From: Isoetes taiwanensis | Lineage: Eukaryota > Streptophyta > Lycopodiopsida > Isoetales > Isoetaceae | NCBI GenBank assembly: GCA_021234155.1 | Contig: JAJEKV010000061.1 | Span: forward strand, 7,735,013-7,799,012 | Direction: 5' to 3' | DNA: 64,000 nucleotides | Part shown: positions 24,997-29,706 of the stretch, piece after piece | How the letters are laid out: each line of letters opens with the position of its first letter | Numbering within the stretch: position 1 is the first letter of the stretch | The notes under the pieces: generated by a model | The model's database searches: none | What the model was told of the DNA's origin: nothing | Seen by the model: only the letters and a program-made list of their open reading frames with translations | Made by a program: the position numbers and the translations under genes

Positions 24997-25134
24997 TATA
25001 TATATATATATATATATATATATATATATATATATATATATATATATATATATATATATATATATATATATATATATATATATATATATATATATATATA
25101 TATATATATATATATATATATATATATATATATA
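24997..25134 (+). repeat. (TA)69 microsatellite, left border of the composite repeat
   Basis: 138 bases of uninterrupted TA. The left side abuts a LINE-like poly(A), and the right side abuts the outer end (CAAGAAAATTAATACGTCC) of the inverted repeat unit. Confidence 0.95.
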
Positions 25135-25815
25135 CAAGAAAATTAATACGTCCTACGGCGCATTGTTCCAATTTTAGCATGTTCCTATGTGCAAGTTCTT
25201 ATAAAAGAATCTCTTGAAAATACTCTAAATTCATAGATTATCTAACATTCTACTAAGGTTCTCTCAGATTCTACCAAGGTTCTCTAAGATTCTACCAAGG
25301 TTCTCTAAATTTTATAAGATTCCTTAGATTTTCCAAGATTTTATGAAGATCCCCTTAGATTCTCTTAGATTCATTTAGATTTTATGAGATTGCCCTAGGT
25401 TCCCTTACATTATATGAGATTCAAAGAGATTCTATAAATATTCCCTTACATACTCTAAGATTTCATTAACATTTTCTTAGATTCCCTTAGATTTTATGAA
25501 GATTCCTTTAGATCCCCCAAATTTTAAGAGATTCCCTTAGGCTTGTAAATATTTTTCTAGATTCTCTTATATTTTATAAGATTTTCTTACATTTTATTAG
25601 ATTCTTCTGGATTCCTTTACATTCTAGAACTTTTTAGAACATTATAAGACTTTCTGGAACATTCTAAGACTTTCAATATATTCTAGAACTTTCTGGAAGT
25701 ATTTTCCTAGATTTCCTTACATTCCCGTAGATTCCCCTACATTCTAGAACATTCTAAAACTTATTAGAACAATTTCTGAAAGAATTTTCTTAGATCCCCA
25801 CTAGATTCTCTTATG

Positions 25816-25863
25816 TTCTAGAACTTTCTAGAAGATTCTAGAACTTTCTAGAGCCTTCTTGAA
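25816..25863 (+). promoter_or_regulatory. Run of ten heat-shock-element-like pentamers (left arm)
   Basis: Alternating TTC and GAA blocks at exact 5-bp spacing: TTC 25816, GAA 25821, TTC 25826, GAA 25831, TTC 25836, GAA 25841, TTC 25846, GAG 25851 (mismatch), TTC 25856, GAA 25861. A functional heat-shock element needs about three such units. The same spacing arises from the local TTCTAGAA repeat composition, so binding by heat-shock factor is an inference. Confidence 0.4.
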
Positions 25864-25943
25864 CTAGCTAGAATACTATTTTATCTTAATGGCAATATTA
25901 CCCTTAAGTATATTTGAAACATAAATTATTCATTGAATTAATG

Positions 25944-26003
25944 CTTGGTCTAGTGGTTAGAGTGGGGGTTTAGGGGTTGAGGACGGTTCAAATCCCCCAA
26001 TAA
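25944..26003 (+). repeat. tRNA-like segment with A and B boxes (left arm)
   Basis: A box TGGTCTAGTGG at 25946-25956 (as in tRNA-Glu/Asp type genes) and B box GGTTCAAATCC at 25985-25995. The same segment occurs inverted at 27146-27200 and 28711-28768. No full cloverleaf is visible, so it looks like a tRNA-derived SINE promoter embedded in the unit. Confidence 0.65.
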
Positions 26004-26479
26004 CATAAAAATTTTAAAAGCCTTTCCTTAAGGGGAAAGCATTCAACATGAGCCTTAGGATCTTAGACTCGATCAGCGATCAAGATCTCACCATATAAAA
26101 GCAATATGAGCCGTAGGATGCGGTCACATATAATTCCCAAAGTCATGTGGACCGTAGGATATGTGCCAAGCCACCTGGCCGTAGGATCTCTGGATCGACG
26201 ATCGGGATCAAATCAACATGGACCGAGTAGGATCGTTACATATAGTCTATATAAGAACCCTCAACCCATCGGGCCTTAGGATACGTCCCAAAGCCCGTGA
26301 GCGTAGGATCACCGGATCCATCGATCGGGATCGATCAATCGGGACCGTAGGATCGTGTCTATATGGGATGTATGTAAATTCCCAAACCATCGGGCGTAGG
26401 ATCGTCCCAAAGCCCGTGAGCCGTCGGATCTCGATGCGGTCGGTTCAATGGGACAAACATAAGAACATATATATGTTAG

Positions 26480-26563
26480 ATATATATATATATATATATA
26501 TATATATATATATATATATATATATATATATATATATATATATATATATATATATATATATAT
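26480..26563. repeat. (TA)42 at the centre of the large palindrome
   Basis: The tract is flanked on both sides by TCTAACATATATATGTTC and then CTTATGTTTGTCCC in perfect inverted orientation. It therefore forms the symmetry centre (about 26521/26522) of the 25135-28362 inverted repeat. Confidence 0.95.
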
Positions 26564-27145
26564 CTAACATATATATGTTCTTATGTTTGTCCCATTGAAT
26601 CCCCATTATCCCGAAAGATCCTACGCTCACGGCTTTGGGACGATCCTACGCCCGCATGGCTTGGGAGTTTACATACGCTCATATAGACGCGATCCCTACG
26701 GCCCAAAGTTGATCCGATCTCGACAAAATCATCCGAGATCCCTACGACCACGCTAAGCTTGGCACATATCTTACGGTCCACATGGCTATGTTCTTATGTT
26801 TGTCCCATTGAATCTGACCGTTGATCTAAGATCCTACGGCTCACGTGGCTTTGGGCCGTATCCTACGCCCGTGATGGTTTGGGAGTTTACATACGACTCA
26901 TATAGACACCATCCTACGGTCAAAGTTGATTCGATCACGGCCGATCCGAGATCTTCACGGCTCACGTTGTTTGGCACATATCTTACGGTCCACATGGCTT
27001 TGGGAATTATATGTAATAGATCCTATGGCTCATATTGCTTTTATATGATGAGATCTTGATCGTTGATTGAGTCTAAGATCCTATGGCTCATGTTGAATGC
27101 TCATCCCTTAAGGAAAGGCTTTTAAAATTTTTTATGTTATTGGGG

Positions 27146-27200
27146 GAATTCGAACCCTGGTCCTCAACCCCCAAACCCCACTCTAACCACTAGACCAAGC
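27146..27200 (-). repeat. tRNA-like segment (right copy 1)
   Basis: On the minus strand the A box TGGTCTAGTGG (27187-27197) is followed by the B box GGTTCGAATTC (27146-27156). It is the inverted counterpart of 25944-26003. Confidence 0.65.
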
Positions 27201-27285
27201 ATTAATTCCATGAAGAATTTATGTTTCAAATATACTTAAGGGTAATGTCTCATTAAGATAAAATAGACTATAACATTCTAGCTAG

Positions 27286-27353
27286 TTCAAGAAAGTTCTA
27301 GAATGTTCTGGAAGGCTCTAGAAAGTTCTAGAATCTTCTAGAAAGTTCTAGAA
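27286..27353 (+). promoter_or_regulatory. Run of fourteen heat-shock-element-like pentamers (right copy 1)
   Basis: TTC and GAA alternate every 5 bp from 27286 to 27353 with one mismatch (CTC at 27316-27318), so 13 of 14 blocks match the HSE rule. This is far longer than typical heat-shock promoters. It is the mirror counterpart of 25816-25863. Confidence 0.4.
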
Positions 27354-28370
27354 CATAAGAGAATCTAAGGGGGATCTAAGAAAACTCTTCCAGAAAGTTC
27401 CAAATTGTTCTAATAAGTTTAGAATGTTCTAGAATGTAGGGGAATCTATGGGAATGTAAGGAAATCTAGGGAAATACTTCCTAAAAGTTCTAGAATATTT
27501 TGAAAGTCTTAGTATGTTTCCTTTAAAAGTCTTAGAATGTTCTAAAAATTCTAGAATGTAAAGGAAAACTGTGAGAATCTAATAGAATGTAAGAAAATTT
27601 TATAAAATATAAGAGAATCTAGGGGATCTAAGAAAATTCTTCGTAAAGTTCCAAATTGTTCTAATAAGATTTAGAATGTTCTAGAATGTGGGGAATCTAT
27701 GGGAATGTAAGGAAATCTAGGGAAATACTTCCAGGAAAGTTCTAGGATGTTTTGAAAGTTTTCAGAATGTTCCGTAAAGTTCTAGAATGTTCTAGAAATT
27801 TCTAGAATATAAGGAATCTAGGAGAATTAAAGGGAATATAAGGAAATCTCATAAATTGTAAGAGAATCTAGGAAAATATTTACAAGTCTAATGCATTCTC
27901 TTAAAATCTAGTTGAATCTAAGGGAATATTCATAATATCTAATGGAATCTAAGAAAATCTTGATGTAATCTTAGAGTTTTTTTAAGATTTTGCAAAGAGC
28001 CACAATAGAATGTTCTAAAATGTTTCATAATAAAGGGGTACAATATAAATCTTGAAAAAAAAAAAAAATCCTATAGATGCTCGGGGAAGCTTTCACGAAA
28101 ATAGAAAGTGTTTTAGAATTGTTGCGCAGATCCAAAATAAATTATTTTAGAAGGTTCTAAATGCTCATGGGTAAGCACCTCAATAAAATCTAGGGGAATC
28201 TTCATGAATGCTAAATATAATACATAGAATGTTGAAGAATATAGAGGAATTACAAGAGAATCTCAGTAGAATCGTTGGTTACCTAGAACATGACAGGGCC
28301 TTGCATCGTAAGAACATGCTAAAACTGGAACAATGCGCCGTAGGACGCATTAATTTTCTTGTATATATCT

Positions 28371-29553
28371 ATCTACTCTATATATGTTCTTATGTTTGTC
28401 GCGCTTATCCGGCCGTCCGTTCGAGATCCGACGGCTCTCGTGGGTTTGGGATGTATCCTACGGCCCAGATGGCCTGGGAGTTTATATATAATATGTGTAC
28501 CGCGGTGCTACGGTCCAGATTGATCTGATCCTGACCGTCGGTCCAAGATCCGACGGCTCATGTTGCTTTAGATATATCCTACACGATGCTACGGTCTAGA
28601 TTGATCATAATCCTTGGTCCAAAATCCTACGGCTCACATTGCATGCTCGGGCCTTGGTATGTTCAACGAATTTTAAGGAATGGCTTTTAAAATTTTTTAT
28701 GTTATTGGGGGGATTCGAACCCTAATCATTAACCCCCCAGCCCCCCATTCTAACCACTAGACCAAGCATTAATTCTATGAATAATTTCTGTTTCAAATAT
28801 ACTTAAGGGTAATGTCCTAATTAAGATAAAATAGAATATAGCATTCTAGATAACTCTAGGATGTAGGGGAATCTTCGGGAATGTAAGGAAATCGGGAAAT
28901 ACTTCCAGAAAGTTCTAGGATGTTTTGAAAGTTTCAGAATGTTCCAGAAAGTTTTAGAATGTTCTAGAAATTTCTAGAATGAAAGGGAATCTAGGGGAAT
29001 TAAAGGGAATCTAAGGAAATCTCATAAATTGTAAGGGAATCTAGGAAGATATTTACAAGCCTAAAGGAATCTCTTAAAATCTAGTTGAATCTAAGGGAAT
29101 TTTCATAATATCTAAGGGAATCTAAGAAAATCTTGATGAAATCTTAGAGTTTTTTTAAGATTTTGCAAAGAGCCACAATAGAATGTTCTAAAATGTTTCA
29201 TAATAAAGGTGTATAATATAAATCTTGAAAAAAAAATTGCTCTAGATGCTCAGGGTAAGCGCCTCAGTCTAAAAATAAAAAGTGTTTTAGAAATGTTGCA
29301 CAGATCCAAAATAGATTATTTTGGAAGGTTCTAAATGCTCATGGGTAAGCATCTCAATCAAAATAGAAAATTCTAAGAGAATCTAGGGGAATCTTCATGA
29401 ATGCTAAATATAGTACATAGAATATTGAAGAATATAGAGCAATCACAAGAGAATCTCAGTAGAATCATTGGTTACCTAGAGCATGACAAGGCCTTGCACC
29501 GTAAGAACATGCTAAAATTGGAACATGCATCATAGGACGCATTAAATTTCTTG
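28371..29553 (+). repeat. Composite repeat unit, right copy 2 (direct repeat of copy 1)
   Basis: It starts CTCTATATATGTTCTTATG and ends TTAAATTTCTTG before the third TA tract. It is in the same orientation as copy 1 and about 0.6 kb shorter. It retains the CCTACGG block, the tRNA-like segment (28711-28768), TTCTAGAA-rich DNA and the GAACATGCTAAAATTGGAAC end. Sequence drift from copy 1 is clear, so the tandem arrangement is not recent. Confidence 0.85.
28711..28768 (-). repeat. tRNA-like segment (right copy 2)
   Basis: A box TGGTCTAGTGG (28754-28764) and a perfect B box GGTTCGAATCC (28711-28721) on the minus strand. The boxes are conserved in all three copies while neighbours drift, which may mean that the segment was active when the units spread. 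Confidence 0.65.
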
Positions 29554-29706
29554 TATATATATATATATATATATATATATATATATATATATATATATAT
29601 ATATATATATATATATATATATATATATATATATATATATATATATATATATATATATATATATATATATATATATATATATATATATATATATATATAT
29701 ATATAT
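29554..29706. repeat. (TA)n microsatellite, right border of the composite repeat
   Basis: About 150 bases of uninterrupted TA directly after the outer end of copy 2. The long Tyr-Ile frames here are artefacts of the repeat. Confidence 0.95.

Follow-up and report, generated by a model that had tools for sequence, protein, structure and literature searches.

Units of a TA-bounded array in Isoetes taiwanensis are probably non-autonomous Helitron-like transposons that insert separately into TA runs

Three related units and three TA tracts

The stretch of DNA analysed here, called the window, comprises 64,000 nucleotides of the Isoetes taiwanensis genome (G000:C1069:7735013-7799012); the assembly searched has 1.66 Gb in 1110 contigs. 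At 24996-29706 the window holds an array of three related units, W1, W2 and W3, and three TA tracts (139, 84 and 153 nt), which a sequence-only reading had described as a three-copy, TA-bounded palindromic repeat of unknown class. We read the units as non-autonomous rolling-circle (Helitron-like) transposons of about 1.2-1.8 kb that insert in TA runs without target-site duplication (TSD), and put the probability of this reading at roughly two in three. The family orientation 5'-TC...CTTG-3' is used throughout, fetched loci carry L numbers, and a caret marks a join.

The first outer TA tract (24996-25134, 139 nt) borders a short A run on one side and on the other abuts the 3' end of W1 (25135-26480, minus strand), a full-length type-A unit with the 5' end A^TCTAACATATATATGTTC... 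and the 3' end ...CTTG^T. On the same minus strand, W1 includes an imperfect palindrome, AATGCG-CCGTAGGA-CGTATT (25145-25164), located 10 nt before the 3' end, a GATTCTCTTA / TTCTAGAA module of 10-bp period (approximate limits 25250-25880) and, in the 5' third, degenerate repeats with CCTACGG (approximate limits 26070-26440). The central TA tract (26480-26563, 84 nt; 26481-26562 when the units are cut at A^T) lies between the 5' ends of W1 and W2, which stand head to head. W2 (26563-28361, plus strand) has a type-B-like 3' part with the palindrome AATGCG-CCGTAGGA-CGCATT (28332-28351, plus strand), again 10 nt before the 3' end, and two 5' heads, at 26563 and about 26787, the first of which is a partial extra head extending from 26563 to ~26786. 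Its 3' end meets the 5' end of W3 at a TATATA junction (28362-28367); W3 (28368-29553, plus strand) is a type-B unit that begins with TCTATCTACTC... and ends with ...AAATTTCTTG, and beyond its 3' end follows the other outer TA tract (29554-29706, 153 nt). Neither the tracts nor the junction has a strand.

That one unit is reversed and two are direct, that all carry their modules in the same order, and that TA tracts lie at the outer borders and the head-to-head centre had been recognized from the letters alone and was confirmed; the division into three units also stood, while their limits were revised to those given above, which follow A^T joins. From 5' to 3', the modules are a TATATA-containing leader with a ATATGTTCTTATGTTTG block, the degenerate CCTACGG repeats, a block earlier labelled tRNA-like, the 10-bp-period module and the conserved 3' end. 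In the L003/L010 copy the 10-bp module has a self-identity of 0.53 at lag 10, compared to 0.19-0.34 at lags 5-9 and 11-15. The family 3'-end block is GCCGTAGGACGYATTAAWTTTCTTG, and the AACATGCTAAAAYTGGAACA block, noticed previously, sits directly inside the 3' end. Partial extra 5' heads within W2, L019 and L022 indicate that some units are not intact.

A coding capacity of the units was rejected: W1, W2, W3 and L010 contain no ATG-started open reading frame (ORF) of more than 87 aa, in agreement with the earlier statement that they encode nothing. The tRNA-like label was not supported, as ARAGORN detected 0 genes in this block and Rfam no tRNA match; the block may resemble A and B boxes. A known RNA was likewise rejected, since MIR810 and similar Rfam matches scored far below the gathering scores and were strongest over the central TA palindrome.

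Dispersal and independent origin of the units

With W1 as query, the 40 candidates scored, of 4087, yielded at least 120 matched pieces. In the genome, 854 occurrences of the 3'-end string GGACGYATTAAWTTTCTTGTATA stand against 0 of its reversed control, and a single unit is present in 8 of the 20 fetched loci, two or more in the remaining ones. Given the 854 3' ends and the single-unit loci, the units are a dispersed high-copy transposable element with hundreds of copies in the genome, and not a satellite. A simple satellite had already been doubted in the sequence-only reading, which had raised the existence of single copies outside palindromes as a question that is now answered.

Relatedness was assessed among 35 units cut from the window and 18 of the 20 loci, leaving out L011, L025 and a third, cut-off unit of L022, and the highest match was defined as the best BLASTN stretch by bits. 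All 27 units in the 11 multi-unit loci had their best-scoring relative among the 35 units at another locus. Within the window, the best stretches were 84% alike between W1 and W2 (806 columns), 88% between W2 and W3 (708 columns) and 86% between W1 and W3. The closest relative of W1 was L009 (95% over 1366 columns), that of W3 was L022 (91% over 718 columns), and that of W2, by bits, was L019 (83% over 1112 columns; the L012 match reached 89% over 819). Since each unit has a higher-scoring relative elsewhere, the units of an array arrived independently. Judged by this relatedness, the three window copies are separate insertions and the apparent palindrome reflects only the orientation in which they landed, so that the three-copy palindrome does not stand as one object. 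Direct and inverted unit orders are both present among the loci, with head-to-head pairs also in L014 and L027. L011 and L025 form an old segmental duplication, about 90% alike and with the same chain of broken units; thus arrays were also copied passively.

Empty sites and element ends

Insertion was examined by comparing occupied and empty sites. The host of the L017 insertion is another high-copy repeat (2775 candidates). When the L017 flanks were joined at A^T, the resulting sequence agreed with an unoccupied copy in 399 of 400 bases, the mismatch lying 24 bases from the join, and 40 of 40 scored places matched across the join. The joined tract, A7 plus 11 nt of TA, equals that of 4 of the 11 measured empty copies, which have 11 to 15 nt of TA; the copies fetched were the best 12 of 40 scored, a choice that favours query-like copies, and L041 was not measurable. 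Furthermore, L012 and L014 share a host repeat on both sides, about 94% alike, and L014 carries two further units. Removal of both extra units at A^T gave the L012 order; one join then differed by a single extra base and the other by none, apart from some mismatches and small gaps close by. The right-hand host flank of L015 has a copy in L029 (430 bp, 98%), in which a short TA run occupies the place of the L015 insertions. At L017 and in the L012/L014 pair, insertion is equivalent to A^T without TSD, as in Helitrons. A 9-10 bp duplication is excluded at three insertions (one at L017, two at L014) in 2 host repeats, all of them TA-rich sites; within such a TA run an A^T join looks the same as T^A, and a gain of 0-2 bp would not show.

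Across the genome, TATA comes directly after the exact 3' end GGACGYATTAAWTTTCTTG in 854 cases and A, C or G in 7, a count that leaves aside T other than in TATA; the reversed control has 0 occurrences. Together with the empty sites, these flanks bear out the earlier proposal of an element that inserts into TA runs. In the window and the 20 loci, one search pattern caught 39 3' ends, missing some that are visible, e.g. L020 at 4340 and L025 at 3995. Among these 39, the terminal tetranucleotide is CTTG in 34, CTTA in 2, TTTG in 2 and CTTT in 1; the next base is T after 37, and a TA run of at least 7 nt follows 32. The units are flanked by TA-rich sequence, exceptions being few. The TA run is at most 15 nt long at 30 of the 39 ends, at least 34 nt at 9, and most commonly 9 nt, which implies that insertion does not regularly give rise to long tracts.

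At the other terminus, A-TC was legible by eye at 29 of 39 listed 5' ends, and we took the Helitron 5' TC to be present; at the other 10, TA runs straight into ATATGTTC, the end is fused to another unit, or the head is internal. At position 4001 of L019, CTTG is joined directly to TC in a head-to-tail junction. In L023, L011 and L025, the TATATATG leader of the next unit begins immediately after the unit end (CTTG; TTTG in L025), as if these units had landed in that leader. No terminal inverted repeat (TIR) was detected in five units tested, whose best inverted end matches of 9-15 nt are internal, so that the absence of TIR and TSD logic stated earlier stood up in these five units and at the three insertions. 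The internal matches consist of the CCTACGG motif in three units and, in the other two (W1, 11/12 nt; W3, 9/9), of a block of 9-12 nt lying about 44 nt inside the 3' end. Their scores were reached by 5 to 43 of 500 shuffles, and the matches may be meaningful.

Comparison with Helitrons

The assignment to an unknown class is not needed, because lacking TIRs and TSDs is precisely what Helitrons look like. Helitrons are characterized by TC at the 5' end, by duplication-free insertion at A^T and by a palindrome that precedes the 3' end by 10-15 nt (PMC4067079, PMC4778049, PMC2267711). Canonical elements (plant Helitron1-type, Helraiser/Helibat1) resemble the units in the 5' TC, A^T insertion without TSD, lack of TIRs, the position of the palindrome ~10-11 nt inside the 3' end, an AT-rich target strongest on the 3' side, and adjacent and head-to-tail copies. 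By a common criterion the palindrome is 16-20 nt long and ~11 nt before the 3' end; that of the units is 20 nt long, imperfect, ends 10 nt before the 3' end and is weakly paired. For Helraiser, PMC4778049 reports a preference for AT-rich targets that is strongest beyond the 3' end, in agreement with the TA run that follows the units, and insertions ending in CTTG next to T from constructs without the hairpin or the right end; CTTG ends have also been observed in maize Helitrons, as stated in PMC4778049.

Helentrons and DINE-1 (HINE) are described as non-coding, with tandem repeats, a 3' palindrome and, in some, a microsatellite (PMC4067079), features also seen in the units. The subterminal inverted match of W1 and W3 recalls, if weakly, the subterminal inverted repeats of Helentrons, while in the other 3 of 5 units the best inverted match is a different motif. 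DINE-1 prefers TT targets (PMC4067079), whereas the L017 empty site fits A^T and not T^T.

Several observations weigh against the Helitron assignment or set the units apart from canonical elements. Compared to canonical Helitrons, the units have CTTG and not CTRR at the 3' terminus, a weaker palindrome, a strong bias to TA runs and no coding partner that we found. Among 19 distinct 3'-end forms, a subset of copies, palindrome pairing occupied 78.6% of cells versus 76.5% in shuffles, 50 of 500 of which reached it; pairing was thus far above slid controls (14-51%) and hardly above shuffles. Covariation was matched or beaten by 33 of 500 shuffles and is not strong, and 3 of 5 folded forms did not outdo their shuffles, 57 to 73 of 200 of which folded equally well. 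At the 5' end the sequence beyond TC is variable, with A-TC legible at only 29 of 39 ends, and the join within the TA run can be read equally as T^A.

Of 1813 candidates for Helitron_like_N domains in the genome, 150 were scored, so that at least 150 are present. Ten coding-Helitron loci were sampled downstream, of which three (L043, L044, L049) had readable ends, each with a strong hairpin and CTAG; L048 has a similar hairpin without readable CTRR, and L042 and L045 are partly N. None of the ten had the end of the CTTG family, and no coding (autonomous) element with the ends of this family was found, which likewise speaks against the assignment. A search for CTTG-ended Helitrons with strong hairpins gave 8 CTTG among 32 CTNN cases, and the strong-hairpin CTTG end of L024 has only 2 exact genome copies, a further point on the negative side. 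The papers listed on CTTG-ended or TA-targeting Helitrons included no TA-array Helitron, though this does not prove that none exists. Altogether, Helitron membership is likely, not proven, and turns on the 3' terminus and the coding partner.

Two of these loci showed features of their own. In L043, two identical Helitron 3' ends (GCCCGGCAACGCCGGGC + ACACGTTTACTAG) occur at 1107-1136 and 4643-4672, the first followed directly by TCTACTTACT in what looks like a head-to-tail Helitron junction. In L024, an identical 3' flank, TATATCTCTAATATATAATTG..., is found both after the strong hairpin with AATAAATTCTTG (minus-strand end, 1118) and after a family unit (end 4001), about 2.9 kb apart.

Alternative origins of the arrays

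An origin of the units as non-autonomous Mutator-like elements (MULEs) of the SaTar/MuTAnT/Micron/TAFT type, i.e. cut-and-paste elements aimed at (TA)n and stacked side by side, would account for their location and layout. According to PMC5907723, such small elements lie in (TA)n in guayule, rice, sorghum and citrus, where they form modular arrays without nesting, and the SaTars of guayule and rice, including Micron (rSaTar2), share with the units the TA-microsatellite location, these arrays and the occurrence of single copies; the units likewise form microsatellite-bounded modular arrays, though not every unit is intact. (TA)n-targeted elements are also described in Medicago, where MuTAnT of Medicago truncatula, like the units, has TA tracts on both flanks of occupied sites (PMC4486113). 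According to these sources, SaTars are MULEs related to autonomous MULEs, with TIRs in guayule and with some families that include no TSD-bearing members (PMC5907723), and MuTAnT has long TIR foldbacks, a 9-nt TSD off microsatellites and a known mudrA-like partner (PMC4486113). MULEs and SaTars would be expected to carry TIRs and, at least outside microsatellites, a TSD of 8-11 bp. The units differ from both in having neither a TIR, in the five tested, nor a 9-10 bp TSD: the latter would lengthen the joined tract by ~9-10 nt, whereas the L017 tract has the length most common among empty copies, and the L014 joins deviate from the empty site by one base and none. This rules out a MULE with a 9-10 bp TSD at the three insertions and leaves the MULE origin as a whole unlikely.

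Alternatively, circular copies might integrate at TA tracts by homologous recombination or by a tyrosine recombinase, with the TA run as crossover core, in a manner that we take to be Crypton-like. Such integration agrees with TA on both sides and with the lack of TIRs and long TSDs, and a core gain of 2-4 nt falls within the variation of the empty copies. One of the models for SaTars has a circle with microsatellite filler recombining into microsatellites (PMC5907723). However, circle integration predicts added TA, of which L017 shows none compared to the commonest empty length and the L014 joins one base and none, and it makes no prediction of a palindrome at a constant place; we regard it as slightly less probable still than a MULE origin. 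Several repeated units follow one another here, together with long TA tracts, which are hard to assemble; this would suit an assembly artefact, a satellite or a local inverted or tandem duplication. Against these stand the divergence of the units (84-88% alike in their best stretches), the existence of single copies and empty sites, and the head-to-head pairs at L014 and L027. In-situ inversion, tandem duplication or the assembly join of one molecule would give the opposite relatedness to that of the 27 array units and is therefore contradicted for the origin. A true palindrome, satellite or artefact was ruled out on the same ground, each unit's best relative being at another locus, and we consider this group of explanations very improbable.

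A possible insertion mechanism

The Helitron-like reading suggests a route by which units of high copy number, constant ends, TA-run target and independent origin, without TIRs or long TSDs, could arise. The 5' TC would be nicked by a Rep-helicase acting in trans, and a strand would be replaced up to the 3' CTTG behind the palindrome. The copy would then be joined between A and T of a TATATA run, with no duplication of the target, in either orientation, because (TA)n is its own reverse complement. Later copies would land beside earlier ones and not inside their bodies, because every insertion is left with TA to either side and TATATA is also present in the 5' leader. The window array would correspond to three insertions, one minus and two plus, and later slippage probably lengthened the outer and central TA tracts.

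Other features of the window

The segment ahead of the first TA tract (24820-24996) resembles what we take to be the 3' end of a long interspersed nuclear element, its A run passing into the tract. Two open frames at 16078-17208 and 34879-35847 match DUF4283, the second below the curated cut-off, and are presumably retroelement ORF1. Host genes are found at 52635-53351, with an STT3 oligosaccharyl transferase N-terminal domain (E 5.7e-82), and at 60066-61229, encoding an F-box-like protein.

A neighbouring group of elements and implications

In three loci (L009, L015 and L018), the unit has a neighbouring element whose end, AGTACAAAAACTTG, precedes TATA and which belongs to a high-copy group with mostly unlike interiors. 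The neighbours of L015 and L018 have only the last 33 bp in common, those of L018 and L009 are alike in two segments close to the end (53 and 79 bp), and those of L015 and L009 gave no match at 1e-5; the end of the L015 neighbour has more than 35 other matching places. Shared ends with unlike interiors recall Helitron capture. The common terminal block may mark a second family of a CTTG-ended lineage.

TA-bounded modular arrays have been ascribed to Mutator-like elements with an unexplained ancillary targeting step (PMC5907723). A TIR-free family without long TSDs that makes such arrays shows that the class of a transposon cannot be told from the array pattern. The occupied and unoccupied loci provide a natural set of filled and empty sites for testing the target choice of rolling-circle elements, and Helitron finders that demand CTRR would miss CTTG-ended elements. 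We propose, tentatively and with more doubt than confidence, that a distinct CTTG-ended rolling-circle lineage, apart from the CTAG Helitrons of this genome, has evolved to target short TA runs strongly and, with its own 5' leader offering a TA landing site, builds self-propagating non-nested arrays. If this is true, the CTTG lineage would be convergent with TA-targeting MULEs by a different chemistry.

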